Source of the DNA: Caldithrix sp.
GTDB lineage: Bacteria > Calditrichota > Calditrichia > Calditrichales > Calditrichaceae
Length of the DNA: 39,175 nt
Assembly: GCA_014730185.1 (NCBI GenBank)
Contig: WJIP01000046.1
Coordinates: 1 to 39,175 of the forward strand
Direction of reading: 5' to 3'
Made by a program: the position numbers and the translations under genes. The notes under the pieces were generated by a model. It searched no databases and was not told the DNA's origin. It saw nothing but the letters and a program-made list of their open reading frames with translations. This document shows, piece by piece, positions 6,043-13,411 of the stretch. The number at the start of each line of letters is the position of its first letter. Position 1 is the stretch's first letter.

Positions 6043-7340
6043 GAAAGGTTTACATAGAAACATATGGTTGCCAAATGAATGAGTATGATACGGAAATTGT
6101 CAAAACCATATTAAAACAAAATAACTATGACTTGACCGAGCAACCGGAAGAAGCACAGATTTTATTCTTGAACACATGTTCAGTGCGGGAAAATGCGCAT
6201 CAAAAGGTGTACCAACGTATCAACACACTAAAACAATTACGTAAAAAGGAAAAAAAGCGCGTAATGGGTGTATTGGGATGTATGGCTCAAAATTTACGTG
6301 ATGAATTATTGGATGAGAAAGTTGGTGTTGATTTGGTAGCCGGCCCGGACAGTTATAAAAAACTACCGGCCATGCTCGAGAGTGTGGTGCAAGATGATGC
6401 CCGGCAATATGCTCTTTCACTGTCAGAATACGAAACATATAGCGATATTTTTCCGGTAAGGGAAGAGGGTGTTAATTCCTGGATTGCTGTTATGCGGGGC
6501 TGTGATAATTTTTGTACTTTCTGTGTTGTCCCGTATACCAGGGGTCGGGAACGTAGTCGTGATCCATTGAACGTAGTAGACGAAGTTAAACGACTGACAG
6601 ATCAGGGTTTTAAGCAGATTACGCTTTTGGGACAAAATGTTAATTCATATCAATACGGAACGTCTGATTTTGCGGATCTTATAAACGAAGTAAGTAAGGT
6701 TGATGGTATCGAACGAATTCGTTTCACATCACCACATCCCAAAGATTTCCCCCAAAAATTAATCGAAACGGTAGCCAATAATCCCAAAGCATGCAGACAT
6801 ATTCATCTTCCTCTGCAGGCAGGAAACACGCGCATTTTGGATATGATGAACCGTACATATACCAAGGAAGATTTTCTGCATCTTGTTGACTATATGAAAG
6901 AACGCATACCTGACCTGGCCTTAACAACCGATATTATTGTTGGATTTCCAACGGAAACCGAATCGGAATATCAGGACACCCTTGATGTTATACGCACTGT
7001 TGAATTTGATTCCGCCTTTATGTTCAAATACTCCGAACGTAAGCAAACCATAGCTTCACGTAAATACCCGGATGATGTGAGTGAAGAGGAAAAAACATCA
7101 CGCATCACCCGATTAGTAGAATTACAGCGGAACATCTCATTAAAGCGCAATCAGCAACACATTGGGAAAGTGTTTTCTGTTTTAATTGAAGGCAAAGCTA
7201 AAAAAGACGGTCAATTGATGGGGCGCAATGACGGTAATAAGATTGTCGTATTTGCGGACACGGGTCAAAAGATCGGTGAATTTATTAATATAAAGATTAC
7301 CACAGCATCGACCAATACATTAATCGGCGAAGTCGTATAA
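6039..7340 (+). CDS. miaB: tRNA i6A37 methylthiotransferase MiaB
   Basis: It makes ms2i6A at position 37 of UNN-decoding tRNAs by radical-SAM chemistry. UPF0004-domain cysteines are C11, C47 and C81, and the radical-SAM triad is C155, C159 and C162 (CDNFCTFC). The YGCQMNEYDTE and RGRERSR motifs identify MiaB. The C-terminal part holds a TRAM domain. The start is TTG, overlapping the mtaB stop as TTGA, with AGGAG at 6027-6031. No ATG lies near the conserved N-terminus, so the TTG start is well supported. Confidence 0.94.
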   Translation: MRKVYIETYGCQMNEYDTEIVKTILKQNNYDLTEQPEEAQILFLNTCSVRENAHQKVYQRINTLKQLRKKEKKRVMGVLGCMAQNLRDELLDEKVGVDLVAGPDSYKKLPAMLESVVQDDARQYALSLSEYETYSDIFPVREEGVNSWIAVMRGCDNFCTFCVVPYTRGRERSRDPLNVVDEVKRLTDQGFKQITLLGQNVNSYQYGTSDFADLINEVSKVDGIERIRFTSPHPKDFPQKLIETVANNPKACRHIHLPLQAGNTRILDMMNRTYTKEDFLHLVDYMKERIPDLALTTDIIVGFPTETESEYQDTLDVIRTVEFDSAFMFKYSERKQTIASRKYPDDVSEEEKTSRITRLVELQRNISLKRNQQHIGKVFSVLIEGKAKKDGQLMGRNDGNKIVVFADTGQKIGEFINIKITTASTNTLIGEVV

Positions 7341-7510: not shown

Positions 7511-8479
7511 GTGTTTCATTTTGACCGGGATATTGTTATTGGTGATATACAATTATGGCTTGATGCCAGGCGTGTAAAGCCATTTGGGTTTATATCGCAT
7601 GCCCATGCCGATCATATAGCCCGCCACAAGGAAATCCTTTGTTCACCACCCACTGCAGAATTTTTAAAAAAGAGATTAAAAAAATCGAATGTTAAAAAAA
7701 TCCCCTACGGACAAATATTTACGATGAAGGATGTAAAATTATCATTACATCCCGCCGGGCATATTTTAGGATCAGCTCAAATTTTGGTACGAAAAAACGA
7801 ACAGTCCTTACTTTACACCGGCGATTTCCGCACTGGGGCATCCCGAACGGTTGAGGATTTCGAAACGGTTGAAGCGGATCAGGTTATTCTGGAGACCACC
7901 TTCGGAAGACCTAAATATGTAATGCCGCCGCGGGAAGATATTGAAGCACGTTTAATCGATCGGTGTAAGGAAAAATTGGCCAAAGGCACAACACCAGTTG
8001 TTTTCGCATATGCTTTGGGCAAAGGGCAGGAAGCACTTAAAATTCTTACCGATGCAGGGTTGCCTGTGGCGGTTGAATATAATATTTATCGTTATATAGA
8101 TATATATAGACGATTCGGTGTACAATTTAAGACATACCGTAAATTTAAACGAAGCGAATATAGAGATCATGTATTACTATTACCGCCCGGATTCCGGCAT
8201 CAACGTTTTATAAGAAATTTGCCTGAAAAATATACGATATTTTTATCGGGTTGGGGAATGGATAATAGTAGTAAATTTCGCTTCCAGGTTGATGAGGTCA
8301 TGCCGATAAGCGATCACGCCGATTACGAAGAACTGATATCTTATATTGAAAGAATTAAACCGGAAGAAATCTACTGTACTCATGGATTTAGGGATTTTGT
8401 CAGCAGATTAAAAAATGCAGGTTACCGGGCTCATGATTTGCAATCCATGTCCCAGCGTGAACTGCATTTAAAGACGTAA
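7511..8479 (+). CDS. MBL-fold exonuclease-like metallohydrolase
   Basis: This 322-aa metallo-beta-lactamase-fold protein resembles the CPSF/SNM1-like and ligase-associated exonuclease group. The metal-binding HAHADH is at residues 30-35. Further ligand positions are visible in HPAGHILGSAQ, YTGDFRTG and SDHADY, with a final histidine in YCTHGFRDF. These fit a nucleic-acid phosphodiesterase. The start is GTG with GGGAG upstream. The related ligase-associated exonucleases sit beside an ATP-dependent DNA ligase, but none is present here, so substrate and role (DNA repair or RNA processing) remain open. The next gene starts 29 bp downstream and may be co-transcribed. Confidence 0.8.
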   Translation: MFHFDRDIVIGDIQLWLDARRVKPFGFISHAHADHIARHKEILCSPPTAEFLKKRLKKSNVKKIPYGQIFTMKDVKLSLHPAGHILGSAQILVRKNEQSLLYTGDFRTGASRTVEDFETVEADQVILETTFGRPKYVMPPREDIEARLIDRCKEKLAKGTTPVVFAYALGKGQEALKILTDAGLPVAVEYNIYRYIDIYRRFGVQFKTYRKFKRSEYRDHVLLLPPGFRHQRFIRNLPEKYTIFLSGWGMDNSSKFRFQVDEVMPISDHADYEELISYIERIKPEEIYCTHGFRDFVSRLKNAGYRAHDLQSMSQRELHLKT

Positions 8480-8508
8480 TACAATTTTGGCTTTAGACGG
8501 GGGAGATC

Positions 8509-10233
8509 ATGTCATCGTTGCAATCAAATTCAGCAAACAAATTTGAGATTGGGCTGGTTATGGCCGGTGCAATTTCAGCCGGAGCCTATTCGGCAGGAGT
8601 CATCGACTTTTTAATACAAGCTTTAGAGGAAATGGCTAATGCCAAACAAAACTTTCCGGATGAGGCCCCGCGGCATGAAGTATCCATAAGCGTGATTTCC
8701 GGCGCTTCTGCCGGTGGAATGACGGCAGCATTGATGACATCAATGTTTAATGAAGAGTATCAGCCGATTACAACCTTACCTGCTGCGTTACCTGATAACA
8801 GTCTTATAAAAAAGAATAAACTATATGATGTCTGGGTAGAGCAAATTGATATCGACGGTTTATTGCAAACGGATGATTTACAGCGAGACAATGAACAGGT
8901 CAGATCGTTGCTGAACTCGCCTATTTTGAATACAATTGCAGAGAACGCATTGCATTTAAGGCCATCATCAGAAAAAAGACCGTACATTACCACACCTTTG
9001 CATCTTTATCTTACCTTAACCAATCTTCGCGGTATCCCTTACACAATCGATTTTGAAGGTGGACAAGGCAGCGGACATCATTTAGCTGCCCATAAGGATT
9101 ATTTTCATTTTGCTATGGGCAACCAATCCAATAGCGATCAGGATTGTGTTTGGCTGGATCCTTCCCAACCGAGTCATTCCCATTGGCAATTATTTAAACA
9201 GTGTGCTCTCGCCACAGGCGCATTTCCCATAGGCCTGGCGCCGCGTTTTATCAGTCGGCCCGCTAAGCATTATGAAACAAGAAAATGGCCCATTCCGCAG
9301 GAAAATGGACAAGCCGATGGCTGTATCCGAATGGATACTATAGCACCGTCCTGGTCAGATAATACGGTTCATAAAAATGGGGAGTATTCTTTTTTGGCTG
9401 TGGATGGCGGTGTAATCGATAATGAGCCCCTGGAATTGGCTCGCAGACAACTTTCCGCAGATCGGCTTTCCAATCCCCGGCGCGCCCGAGAAGCCAATCG
9501 CGCCGTATTATTAATCGACCCATTTCCTGCGATGGATATCATGTCCGCAGATGAGTCCGGGGCTTCAGCCGATTTCGATATTCTGCAAACAGGTATGAAG
9601 TTGTTTACCAGTCTCAAAAATCAGGCCCGTTTTAAGCCAGAAGAGTTAAAACTTGCCTTGAACGATGATGTTTTCAGTCGATTCTTGATTGCTCCCTCAC
9701 GGCGATTATCCAATGGTTCGGCTGCCCGCTATCCCATTGCTTCGGGTTGCATGGGGGGCTTTGGCGGATTTTTACATAAATTGTTCAGAGTTCACGACTT
9801 TCAGCTCGGACGTCGTAATTGTCAAAAATTTTTACAAGATCATTTTGTGATCCCCATGGAAGAAGCCAAACGTAATCCCATTTTTGCAGAGTATGATGAA
9901 CAGGCCTTCAACAGAATAAAACGGACAGTTGATGGCAAAGACATGGTGCCGATTATTCCTTTAGCCGGTAGGGCTACTGAACAAGAATTTACGCTCGCCT
10001 GGGATGGAATCAAAGTGAACCAATCCTTTATCGAAGCTCTACAGCGAAAAATTGATAAGCGTTCTAAAAAGGTGGCATACAGGTTAATTGATAAAAAAAT
10101 TGATGGACTTTTTAAAAAAAATCTGAGCAAACTGGTATATCTATGGAAAGGTGATACCCTCATACAGGGTATCGTAAAAAAAATTGAGAACGATCTCGTA
10201 AAATTCGATTTATTCAGTAGATCAAGCATGTAA
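8509..10233 (+). CDS. Patatin-like phospholipase
   Basis: This is a 574-aa acyl hydrolase with the patatin Ser-Asp dyad. The oxyanion region is a variant (AGAISAGAYSAG, residues 19-30) in place of the classic GGGxRG. The nucleophile is S67 in GASAG, and the catalytic Asp is D299 in VDGGVIDNEP. Patatin-like enzymes cleave acyl chains from phospholipids or other lipids. There is no signal peptide, so it is cytosolic or peripheral to the membrane. The long C-terminal part (about 310-574) is not recognised and has a basic stretch near the end. It has a strong SD (GGGGGAG) and is the first gene of the block that continues with a membrane protein, a holin and an endolysin. Confidence 0.82.
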   Translation: MSSLQSNSANKFEIGLVMAGAISAGAYSAGVIDFLIQALEEMANAKQNFPDEAPRHEVSISVISGASAGGMTAALMTSMFNEEYQPITTLPAALPDNSLIKKNKLYDVWVEQIDIDGLLQTDDLQRDNEQVRSLLNSPILNTIAENALHLRPSSEKRPYITTPLHLYLTLTNLRGIPYTIDFEGGQGSGHHLAAHKDYFHFAMGNQSNSDQDCVWLDPSQPSHSHWQLFKQCALATGAFPIGLAPRFISRPAKHYETRKWPIPQENGQADGCIRMDTIAPSWSDNTVHKNGEYSFLAVDGGVIDNEPLELARRQLSADRLSNPRRAREANRAVLLIDPFPAMDIMSADESGASADFDILQTGMKLFTSLKNQARFKPEELKLALNDDVFSRFLIAPSRRLSNGSAARYPIASGCMGGFGGFLHKLFRVHDFQLGRRNCQKFLQDHFVIPMEEAKRNPIFAEYDEQAFNRIKRTVDGKDMVPIIPLAGRATEQEFTLAWDGIKVNQSFIEALQRKIDKRSKKVAYRLIDKKIDGLFKKNLSKLVYLWKGDTLIQGIVKKIENDLVKFDLFSRSSM

Positions 10234-10365
10234 AAGTTGTATTCAACTTAAACAAATAACGTTTTAATATAATGTTTGAGGATATTGATTTTTGAAATGA
10301 TAAGGCCTCGAAACCGGGTAGTTCAGATAGAATAAGGGCAAAAATTGATACATGGGGGATAAATT

Positions 10366-11160
10366 ATGCCTACTTCTCGCATTGTTTTACTATTACTTAT
10401 TGGTATTGCATTATTAATCGGTTCGATTTTATTGAGGGTTATTTCCAAGGGTAAATATGAGATAAAGACCATTGATCTTGTTTTTATAATTATACCTTTA
10501 CTTTTCGCCGGATTGATAAGTGGCAAAATTAAAGGGCTAGATATTTTTGGTATCAAAACGGATTTCTCCGATCTATTTAATGCCGCGGCCAATCAGCGTA
10601 TTGAACAACAGGTTTCCAGTGTTCCCGTTTCTCCGGTAAGCGATGCGGTTGAAATGATAGAGGCCGGCGAAAAAAGGGGATTGGAAGAAATTCCCCGTTT
10701 AATCGAGCAAAAAACAGAAGCCCTTGCTTTTCAGCTCGCTTATGGCGGTTATTATGGAAGAGCCATAAAAGAATATCTAAATGATTTGTATGGAAGCTCT
10801 TATTTAAAATATGTAATTATAAACAACCCCGATGGTACATTGTTCGGCATGTATAATGCCGTCGATCTCATTGCTTATCTGCGCACCATGGGGGATTCGG
10901 GCTATGATCGCTTTGAACGCATGTTAAATGACGGTGATAGCAGGGCCAGGGCATGGTTAGCTCGCACACCGGGTTTTATTCCGGTTGATGAAGCTGTCGA
11001 TGTTACCATGTCCAAACGAAATGCTCTTAAAAATATGGAAAAGAGCGGCTTAACGGTTCTACCCGTTATCAATGAACAGAATAAATTTATAGGTACTATT
11101 AATAGAGAACAACTAACCACCAGCCTCATCTTAACAGTCACAAATAACATTTCTGAGTGA
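10366..11160 (+). CDS. Two-TM membrane protein with CBS-like C-terminal region
   Basis: I cannot assign a family with certainty. Two hydrophobic helices (about residues 5-27 and 36-55) anchor the 264-aa protein. A linker rich in E, Q and S follows, then a soluble part of about 150 residues. In it, two segments (YLKYVIINNPDGTLFGMYNA and GLTVLPVINEQNKFIGTINR) match the beta-beta-alpha end of CBS motifs, which suggests a ligand-sensing CBS pair. It has its own SD (GGGGGA). Its position between a patatin lipase and a holin-like gene suggests a sensor or regulator at the membrane; this is inference from context. Confidence 0.55.
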   Translation: MPTSRIVLLLLIGIALLIGSILLRVISKGKYEIKTIDLVFIIIPLLFAGLISGKIKGLDIFGIKTDFSDLFNAAANQRIEQQVSSVPVSPVSDAVEMIEAGEKRGLEEIPRLIEQKTEALAFQLAYGGYYGRAIKEYLNDLYGSSYLKYVIINNPDGTLFGMYNAVDLIAYLRTMGDSGYDRFERMLNDGDSRARAWLARTPGFIPVDEAVDVTMSKRNALKNMEKSGLTVLPVINEQNKFIGTINREQLTTSLILTVTNNISE

Positions 11161-11284
11161 ACGTTTTATCAAGGCCATTGTGATCCATTGTCAAACGGAT
11201 AAACAGGGTACGTTTAAGTAAGACAATAGAGAATTTTACGGTTTTAATTAGTTATAATAATCATTTATTAGTGGAGGGAATAAC

Positions 11285-11782
11285 ATGAGTTGGTTATCCG
11301 ATATTTTTTCAGGTGCTTTCGGGGGCGTTGTGGAGCAAGTGGGTAGTGTGGTAGATAAGTTTCATCTGAGCGGAGAAGAAAAGAAAAAACTGAAGATGGA
11401 AATGCAGAGGCTTGTTCAACAAAGGGAGTCGGAAGTTGAAGAAACCATCCGAAAGGAATTGCAGGCCAAAGAACGCGTATTGGTCGCCGAATTACAGCAG
11501 GGAGATAATTACACCAAACGGGCCCGGCCGACCGTGGTTTATGCCGGTTTAATATTTATATTTATCAATTATGTATTAGTACCAATGATTCAGGCGTTGG
11601 CCGATGCTCCGGTAAAACCATTCGATTTACCAGTTGAGTTCTGGGCGGCCTGGGGTGGCATTGTCGGTACTTGGACCATTGGGCGTTCAGCCGAAAAGCG
11701 GGGTGCGAATAATCGATTGACCCGAGCAATCACAGGCAGTCGTAGAGTCAGTCTTTTTGACGATGAACCGGCAAAAGGTTGA
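11285..11782 (+). CDS. Holin of the 3TM gene-transfer-agent type
   Basis: This 165-aa protein resembles the GTA holin family (holin of 3TMs, for gene-transfer release). It has an amphipathic, glycine-rich N-terminus (residues 2-23) and a charged helical stretch (about 30-70). The family-like motif QGDNYTKRARPTVVYAGLIF leads into a transmembrane helix (about 82-105), and a second hydrophobic segment lies at 118-134. Holins make inner-membrane holes that let a cytosolic endolysin reach the wall. The next gene, 10 bp downstream, is exactly such a leaderless amidase. No phage head, tail or packaging genes lie nearby. The SD is GTGGAGGG. Confidence 0.7.
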   Translation: MSWLSDIFSGAFGGVVEQVGSVVDKFHLSGEEKKKLKMEMQRLVQQRESEVEETIRKELQAKERVLVAELQQGDNYTKRARPTVVYAGLIFIFINYVLVPMIQALADAPVKPFDLPVEFWAAWGGIVGTWTIGRSAEKRGANNRLTRAITGSRRVSLFDDEPAKG

Positions 11783-11792
11783 GGATAAAATT

Positions 11793-12629
11793 ATGGATAT
11801 TAAAAATCATAGGCTGAAAAACAGTGGTTTCCAGTTCAAAGAATCACCTAACCATTCCGGTAAAATGAAAGATGGTCAACCCGACAGCATTGTAATCCAT
11901 TACACAGCTGGCGGTTCCGCGGAAAGTGCAGTACGTACGTTAAGCAATCCGGCACGGAAAGCATCGGCACATCTGGTTATAGGTCGTGATGGATCAGTAA
12001 CTCAATTGGTGCCTTTTGATACCGTAGCATGGCATGCCGGAAGAAGCTCGTATGAGGGCAGGAGCGGATTCAATAATTTCTCCATCGGCATTGAAATTGA
12101 TAATGCTGGTAAATTAACAAAAACAGAAGAGGGTCATACTTCATGGTTTGGTAAGGATTATCCGGCAAAAGACGTTATAAGGGCCACCCATCGTAATGAA
12201 CATCAGCCATCCTATTGGCACAAGTACACGGAACAGCAAATTAATTTAGTGTTTGATGTCTGCTCTGTATTGATCGATACTTATGCCATTACCTTAATTG
12301 TAGGACATGAAGAAATTGCTCCATCGCGCAAAACCGATCCGGGGCCTGCATTTCCACTGGATAAATTAAGAGAGCGTTTGCTGCAGACCGAGCGCGCTGA
12401 AGATGGCTCTGCAGATGGCTCTGCAGATGAAGAAACGATGCAAGGGAATGTGGGTGTGGTTACGGCATCCAAACTAAATATCCGTTCTGAGCCTTGGTTG
12501 CAGGCAAAAACTGCTGCGCCGCCTATACCAAGAGGAACCATGCTTAAAATTCTTGACGAAACCGATGATTGGTATCAGGTGGATGTGATCACAAGAGGCT
12601 GGGTAAGTAAGAAATTTGTGAGTACATAA
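11793..12629 (+). CDS. N-acetylmuramoyl-L-alanine amidase with SH3 domain (endolysin-like)
   Basis: This 278-aa peptidoglycan hydrolase is of the amidase_2 / T7-lysozyme fold. It cuts between N-acetylmuramic acid and L-alanine. Predicted zinc ligands are H36 (IHYTAGG), H172 (VGHEEI) and D182 (KTDPGP); the WHAGRS segment is also typical. A bacterial SH3 domain (about 220-277) follows an Asp/Ser-rich linker built on a short DNA repeat. There is no signal peptide, so release would need the holin just upstream. I prefer the ATG at 11793 over the one at 11757 because GAGG (11781-11784) is correctly spaced and the longer form would overlap the holin gene by 26 bp. Confidence 0.88.
   Translation: MDIKNHRLKNSGFQFKESPNHSGKMKDGQPDSIVIHYTAGGSAESAVRTLSNPARKASAHLVIGRDGSVTQLVPFDTVAWHAGRSSYEGRSGFNNFSIGIEIDNAGKLTKTEEGHTSWFGKDYPAKDVIRATHRNEHQPSYWHKYTEQQINLVFDVCSVLIDTYAITLIVGHEEIAPSRKTDPGPAFPLDKLRERLLQTERAEDGSADGSADEETMQGNVGVVTASKLNIRSEPWLQAKTAAPPIPRGTMLKILDETDDWYQVDVITRGWVSKKFVST
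12401..12429 (+). repeat. 12-bp tandem repeat in the endolysin linker
   Basis: The unit agatggctctgc occurs 2.4 times in frame and encodes a D/G/S/A-rich linker between the amidase and SH3 domains. In-frame copy-number change would alter linker length without breaking the protein. Confidence 0.8.
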
Positions 12630-13281
12630 TTTTTAAAATATCCGTTAGAGCTAACGAATACATAGATTTTTCTGAAGAAAATTAAGAATAGACGAACTTA
12701 AATTTCCGAGTACATAACCGTTCGTATGTTCATTATGTCTTAACGAGAGTGTTGCAATCGCTAATGAAGCCGATGAGTTATTTAGACATCCGTTGTTTTA
12801 TGACATATGCTTTAAGATATATCATCGGCATTTCTACATATTTCAACGATAAGTAACTGATACGATGTTTTAGGCTCATTTGACTTGATCCTCCATTCAC
12901 TAACATAAGGGTATTATCGGATTATATTGTGATTTCTTTAAAACATCTTATTGCAGGTATTTCAAAAAAGTGTGAATACATATAATTAAATTTAAATTAG
13001 GAAATTATACGAGATAGATGGATTAAAACACTTCGATTATTAATTTCGAAGAAAAAATGCAATTTTATCATCCTTACTCGTATGGAAGCCAGTAGGATTT
13101 AAATCTTTGATATGGGTCTGAGGTATGGGCGTCCATATAAAGCTTAGGGTCGGATTAACCCGTATAAAATAAATTATATAAAGTGGCGGCAAATTTGCAT
13201 AAATTACGTGCGCCGGCCTAATATAATATTGGATTTTGATTTTTTTAAACCTTGAATCTCTGTTAAACCCTGGATTTTTTT
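12630..13281. other. Gene-poor stretch after the endolysin
   Basis: About 650 bp are AT-rich without a supported gene. A minus-strand frame of 87 codons (13040-13303) has no recognisable domain and runs across the tRNA-Tyr promoter. One imperfect dyad pairs GCCGATGA (12769-12776) with TCATCGGC (12822-12829) across 45 bases; it could be RNA structure or chance. No clear terminator follows the amidase gene. Confidence 0.4.
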
Positions 13282-13311
13282 TTGACTTGAATATATCAAA
13301 CATCTTATATT
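13282..13311 (+). promoter_or_regulatory. Sigma-70-type promoter of tRNA-Tyr
   Basis: TTGACT (13282-13287) and TATATT (13306-13311) are 18 bp apart, ending 16 bp before the mature tRNA. Whether this phylum's main sigma factor uses these exact boxes is assumed. Confidence 0.6.
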
Positions 13312-13327
13312 ATTTGTCCTCAAACAA

Positions 13328-13411
13328 GGGGAGGTAGCGAAGCGGTCAAACGCATCAGACTGTAAATCTGCCGGCTGAATGCCTTCGGAGGTTCGAATCC
13401 TCCCCTCCCCA
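13328..13411 (+). tRNA. tRNA-Tyr (GTA)
   Basis: The acceptor GGGGAGG (13328-13334) pairs with CCTCCCC (13404-13410), and A13411 is the discriminator. The anticodon loop CTGTAAA gives anticodon GTA at 13362-13364. The long variable arm is as expected for bacterial tRNA-Tyr. The T arm is a perfect GGAGG/CCTCC with loop TTCGAAT. The top pair of the anticodon stem is a T-C mismatch. No CCA is encoded. Confidence 0.95.

Follow-up and report, generated by a model that had tools for sequence, protein, structure and literature searches.

What are a phage-type holin and an endolysin-like amidase doing beside a patatin-like phospholipase and a membrane protein with a CBS-like tail, in a stretch of bacterial DNA without other phage genes? 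The question is raised by four consecutive genes of Caldithrix sp., a member of a little-studied phylum (assembly GCA_014730185.1, contig WJIP01000046.1), located in the 39,175-nt stretch that was analysed as a whole and is called the window below. We propose that they probably form a cell-suicide or cell-opening device and are not viral debris, because three of the four genes recur together in a second phylum. A narrower reading, in which they are a horizontally acquired, host-encoded programmed-lysis module, probably of the abortive-infection type, is one whose function we infer and to which we give slightly less than an even chance.

The recurring genes were found in a metagenome-assembled genome of Aliifodinibius (Balneolota; L027), where a patatin, a predicted lipoprotein, a 123-amino acid (aa) protein, a CBS protein and an amidase are encoded on one strand within 4.2 kb. 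The three shared genes retain the order and strand of the window, their products being 49% (patatin), 38% (CBS protein) and about 56–57% (amidase) identical, and the 278-aa window amidase aligns end to end with its relative. No phage gene accompanies the patatin-CBS-amidase row, and the holin is the one of the four parts that is missing from this second phylum. Judged by sequence, chance cannot explain three same-order genes in two phyla; therefore, the four-gene set would consist of a three-gene core, which is the travelling unit, and a variable holin. The initial annotation had treated all four genes as a unit, which stands for the patatin, CBS protein and amidase but not for the holin. The outcome set beforehand as refuting it, a lipase and membrane protein never linked to lytic genes, is the opposite of what Aliifodinibius presents.

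The window holds four intact open reading frames (ORFs), all on the + strand and where the initial annotation had placed them, and the Pfam and PHROGs matches agree with the families it had named (Table 1). The patatin matches PF01734 above the Pfam cut-off (E=2.5e-10), and both residues highlighted earlier, S67 and D299, proved invariant, as are G300 and G301, in an alignment with six distant full-length relatives. Direct reading, with no dedicated predictor, revealed no leader-like N-terminal hydrophobic stretch, and thus no evident signal peptide, in either the patatin or the amidase. The patatin family is TIGR03607-like, with a score far under that model's cut-off, and has no match by sequence in the PDB. 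A first contig scan of genomes with a single patatin query gave no matches; the family is wide, with 313 candidate loci. In Nostocales (L014, L031–L040), the patatin gene comes after a conserved row of peroxidase, hypothetical protein and GMC oxidoreductase genes. Co-occurrence of a full-length amidase with a patatin (9/32 versus 4/38; Fisher p=0.07, uncorrected for phylogeny) was not relied on.

The 264-aa membrane protein has, as had been claimed, two transmembrane (TM) stretches and a predicted cytosolic CBS-like tail. PF00571 was recognized at residues 211–251, just above the cut-off (E=1.3e-5; 25.8 bits versus 24.0), and Pfam picks up the second CBS motif only, the first being undetected. 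The structural model, built from two sequences, is weak (predicted local distance difference test score of 62), and its best PDB resemblances are the CBS pairs of MgtE and CBSX2 (best Foldseek E 0.011, none with E<=0.001); it weakly supports assignment to the CBS/Bateman fold class.

As for the holin, the match to PF11351 (GTA_holin_3TM, E=8e-24) supports the earlier assignment to the gene transfer agent (GTA) type; the predicted topology comprises one strong TM segment (84–102) and a weaker C-terminal helix, not three clear TM segments. The protein is 38–56% identical to eight viral-contig holins, some encoded directly before terminase-like genes. Orphan PF11351 holins are present in three other Calditrichota too. 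In a genome of the same order (L024:6264-7195), an orphan Glyco_hydro_108 endolysin gene and a PF11351 holin gene overlap by one base on a 14-kb contig with no evident phage genes, a pair much like the lysis pair of the Rhodobacter capsulatus GTA (RcGTA).

The amidase combines Amidase_2 (PF01510, E=1.8e-30) with SH3_3. Its automatic ORF start, TTG at 11757, falls inside the holin gene, and we corrected it to the likely ATG at 11793, 10 bases past the holin stop and with a GAGG motif upstream. The endolysin role of this protein is supported by phage Lacusarx, because there the related amidase gene precedes a gene for a TM coiled-coil protein with which a lipoprotein gene overlaps, a pair that is Rz/Rz1-like by reading. 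Phages and several proteobacteria encode full-length relatives, as do four genomes from a single other genus of Calditrichota. In the amidase tree, where the window protein falls in a clade of full-length relatives from chromosomes and viruses, the window protein, L027 and the viral L117 form a group (90/89), joined by Calditrichota g12 (97/95), with no firm order inside. In the other Calditrichota genus (L166–L169), several small genes for TM, lipoprotein and coiled-coil products lie downstream of the amidase-SH3 gene amid housekeeping genes, an arrangement suggestive of an endolysin that has been domesticated along with spanin- or holin-like partners. Elsewhere, the amidase-SH3 gene abuts, on the same strand, a gene for an 893-aa patatin-like protein of a different kind (L175:3390-6903), with the orthologue of the window patatin encoded roughly 12 kb off on that contig; adjoins a matrixin-type protease gene (L176); or, in Beggiatoa (L170:4841-7294), adjoins a gene for a CHAT-AAA (NACHT-like) protein.

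The described lysis-like character of the locus, a holin with an adjacent leaderless peptidoglycan hydrolase, is thus retained, and so is its orphan state. No structural, packaging or integrase genes lie near the cassette in the window. The window contig is one of the 398 contigs of a 4.1-Mb genome (G000, 96% complete), in which the models for sheath (PF04984), spike (PF04717), portal (PF04860) and terminase (PF03237, Terminase_6N) found no match; the genome-wide search comprised these four models and not other terminase families, HK97 capsid, TssB/TssC or integrases. Its sole PF11351 protein is the cassette holin. With these models, the portal, large terminase and tail/sheath required of a prophage or GTA were not found, nor were the sheath and spike expected beside effectors of a contractile injection system, TssB/TssC lying outside the search. 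The suggested release of particles or GTAs by G000 was rejected on these four negatives. The same four models likewise remained without a match in the Aliifodinibius genome.

The patatin, the holin, the CBS protein and a full-length amidase are all absent from the other 14 genomes of the family; hence, the sequence comparisons indicate that the cassette was probably gained recently. Neither the patatin nor the CBS protein was confirmed on viral contigs. The CBS protein is rare (homologues at L022, L027, L128–L131 and L178): besides a lone copy in another Calditrichota genome, there is one in Aliifodinibius, the only full-length carrier among 297 sampled genomes of its phylum, and distant homologues (profile E about 1e-20) reside on Rhizobiaceae plasmids. 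The neighbours of the latter were linked by annotation and profile matches. In Sinorhizobium fredii and S. meliloti, the CBS homologue is divergently oriented from two genes, one for a GDSL-Amidase_3-M15 fusion and one for a trypsin-like protease, with LmuA (Lamassu) a few genes downstream in S. fredii. In Rhizobium johnstonii, PG_binding_1 and M15 genes flank it at one end, GDSL-like and Trypsin-Endonuclease_NS genes flank it at the opposite end, and SIR2-HerA lies close by. In turn, in Ensifer adhaerens, it adjoins a GH24 lysozyme gene, a Tle1-like lipase gene and an extracellular contractile injection system (eCIS) locus. Thus, defence genes (Lamassu or SIR2-HerA) neighbour two of the Rhizobiaceae loci and an eCIS neighbours another, and the peptidoglycan hydrolases encoded there are leaderless.

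Because genes for lipases and peptidoglycan hydrolases as well as established defence systems adjoin the distant CBS homologues, we favour abortive infection as, by analogy, the most likely purpose. It is possible, although we think it unlikely, that the loci represent an undescribed family of suicide modules in Calditrichota, Balneolota and Rhizobiaceae, in which a membrane-anchored Bateman-like protein would control leaderless lipases and peptidoglycan hydrolases, the enzymes being interchangeable (patatin, GDSL, Tle1; Amidase_2, Amidase_3, GH24, M15) and the window holin captured from a phage. A parallel build was found in Hydrogenophilales (L034:7032-11064), with papain-like protease, patatin, DUF4231/SLATT-like two-TM and Amidase_2 genes in a row.

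Table 1. Coordinates and features of the cassette genes and of two related loci
Feature	Position	Strand	Domains and remarks
Patatin-like phospholipase, 574 aa, leaderless	8509..10233	+	PF01734; S67 in GASAG, D299 in DGG
Membrane-anchored CBS/Bateman-like protein, 264 aa, candidate sensor or gate	10366..11160	+	PF00571; two N-terminal TM
GTA_holin_3TM-type holin, 165 aa	11285..11782	+	PF11351; PHROG 3427 (holin)
Leaderless N-acetylmuramoyl-L-alanine amidase with C-terminal SH3, endolysin-like, 278 aa	11793..12629	+	PF01510, PF08239; PHROG 1794 (amidase)
Amidase of another Calditrichota genus (L167)	6507-7334		Downstream small genes of 131, 114, 144, 167 and 120 aa
R. johnstonii locus	L178:4053-18704		CBS-2TM homologue, GDSL-like lipase, Trypsin-Endonuclease_NS fusion, M15, SIR2-HerA

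In the mechanism that we envisage, the amidase and the patatin would accumulate in the cytosol, and the membrane-anchored Bateman-like protein, for which we infer CBS-like sensing, would respond to a nucleotide or energy-state change or to a viral cue and restrain or release the system. The holin, translated right before the amidase, would open the inner membrane, giving the amidase access to the wall, which it would cut. The patatin would reach and attack the membrane phospholipids and might stand in for spanins as the envelope breaker, a job done in mycobacteriophages by the LysB esterase. As its purpose, altruistic death (abortive infection) would rank first, ahead of controlled release. 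If this is true, bacteria have built, outside phages, a means of lysis directed at membrane, wall and lipids together, with a nucleotide-sensor-like membrane protein alongside. It would offer a testable link from energy or nucleotide signals to programmed lysis and a candidate route by which the cell could be opened in immunity-like systems, for example LypABC, the final lytic effector of which is not yet known (PMC13236601).

Known systems resemble the locus in part. Phage lysis cassettes share the PF11351 holin and the leaderless phage-type Amidase_2-SH3, adjacent and on the same strand; unlike them, the window adds a lipase and a Bateman-like membrane protein and lacks phage genes and spanin genes (no lipoprotein or TM coiled-coil ORF in 8400–13400 among ORFs of at least 70 aa, shorter or embedded spanins not having been searched). 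The RcGTA pair rcc00555/rcc00556 likewise consists of a putative holin gene and an adjacent lytic gene, located apart from the structural genes (PMC3423380). However, rcc00555 is a putative lysozyme and not an Amidase_2 protein, neither a lipase nor a CBS protein is reported with the pair (PMC3423380), and the window genome has no portal, Terminase_6N or sheath match. The type 10 secretion system (T10SS) also relies on host-encoded lysis proteins, in its case for controlled lysis (PMC10847048); its spanins and toxin cargo were not seen in the window. LypABC of Caulobacter is likewise a host-encoded, immunity-like lysis module outside prophages, and the Rhizobiaceae trypsin-endonuclease fusion near the CBS homologue recalls, by description only, LypC with its peptidase and putative endonuclease domain (PMC13236601). 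In contrast, the window has no CARD or NLR gene, and no holin, lipase or amidase figures in the description of LypABC (PMC13236601). CapV, the patatin effector of abortive infection in the cyclic oligonucleotide-based antiphage signalling system, resembles the window protein as a cytosolic patatin-family phospholipase. Yet, the latter has no PADLOC match and no adjacent nucleotide cyclase, its gene being flanked by those for the CBS protein and for a metallo-beta-lactamase-type protein. A literature search found no report of a patatin with a peptidoglycan hydrolase in anti-phage operons. A lipase, a Bateman-like protein, a holin and an amidase occur together in none of phage cassettes, RcGTA, T10SS, DLP12 and LypABC.

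Several observations weigh against a programmed-lysis module. The linked core was found in only one other genome, which lacks the holin, so that the exit of the amidase from the cytosol there is not explained, and the four-gene form in no other genome searched. A Calditrichota genome (G024) has the CBS protein alone, 53% identical. Any one Pfam family is represented at most twice among the 129 neighbours of 48 patatin loci; with neighbours this diverse, we rejected a general rule linking such patatins to lysis genes, and the expected constant co-occurrence with a holin and amidase did not hold. No good PADLOC match was obtained for any of the four proteins, and the window context is one of housekeeping genes, not a defence island. 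Furthermore, gaps of 132 bases (patatin to CBS gene) and 124 bases (CBS gene to holin) part three of the four genes, which leaves a single operon only plausible.

These gaps, which part the two halves of the cassette, would also suit a remnant, that is, a phage holin-endolysin pair left by chance beside a host patatin and a host membrane protein to which it is unrelated. The holin is 54–56% identical to viral-contig holins, the catalytic domain of the amidase is 59% identical to one viral-contig protein, and orphan holins occur elsewhere in the phylum. We nevertheless find a remnant unlikely: all four frames are intact, the four phage and particle markers are unmatched in the genome, and the Aliifodinibius amidase travels with the patatin and CBS protein without a holin or phage gene, so a remnant could account for the holin alone and not for the amidase. 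Somewhat less probable still is regulated release, in which lysis of a subpopulation would liberate vesicles, particles or proteins of the cytosol, as with T10SS or the RcGTA lysis pair. Such release has precedents in Yersinia entomophaga, whose T10SS works via host-encoded lytic proteins outside prophages (PMC10847048), and in the orphan rcc00555/556 genes proposed for RcGTA release (PMC3423380), and the E. adhaerens homologue adjoins an eCIS. However, the particle markers are unmatched in both core-bearing genomes, no obvious cargo gene lies by the cassette, and a lipase with a Bateman-like protein is foreign to both models.

The E. adhaerens neighbourhood (Tle1, GH24, eCIS) would also fit an antibacterial effector set, with the amidase and patatin as toxins for other cells and the CBS protein as immunity protein or adaptor. 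Type VI secretion systems and eCIS commonly have effectors of such types: amidases without a leader, patatins, Tle1 lipases and nucleases. We regard such a set as very unlikely, since it leaves the holin without a role and spike and sheath are unmatched in the window genome, TssB/TssC and other secretion systems not having been searched. Equally little probability is assigned to quiet housekeeping, that is, wall recycling or control of vesiculation. The amidase does resemble the recycling enzyme AmpD, but AmpD has no C-terminal SH3 and no need of a holin; full-length relatives of the window protein occur in phage lysis cassettes, and the cassette was not found in the rest of the family. The precedent here is the DLP12 lysis module of Escherichia coli, a holin-endolysin-spanin operon that modulates vesicles (PMC7918800).

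Returning to the programmed-lysis module, a single transcript for the four genes is plausible. Besides the gaps given above, 29 bases separate the upstream gene from the patatin gene and 10 the holin gene from the amidase gene. No terminator-like site lies on the + strand between the cassette genes, the one at 10736 being inside the CBS gene; promoter and terminator scans gave sites no more numerous than in shuffles. By reading, the genes upstream of the cassette encode MtaB/MiaB-type radical-SAM proteins and the metallo-beta-lactamase-type protein, while tRNA-Tyr, tRNA-Val, threonyl-tRNA synthetase, IF-3, ribosomal L20 and both phenylalanyl-tRNA synthetase subunits are encoded downstream.

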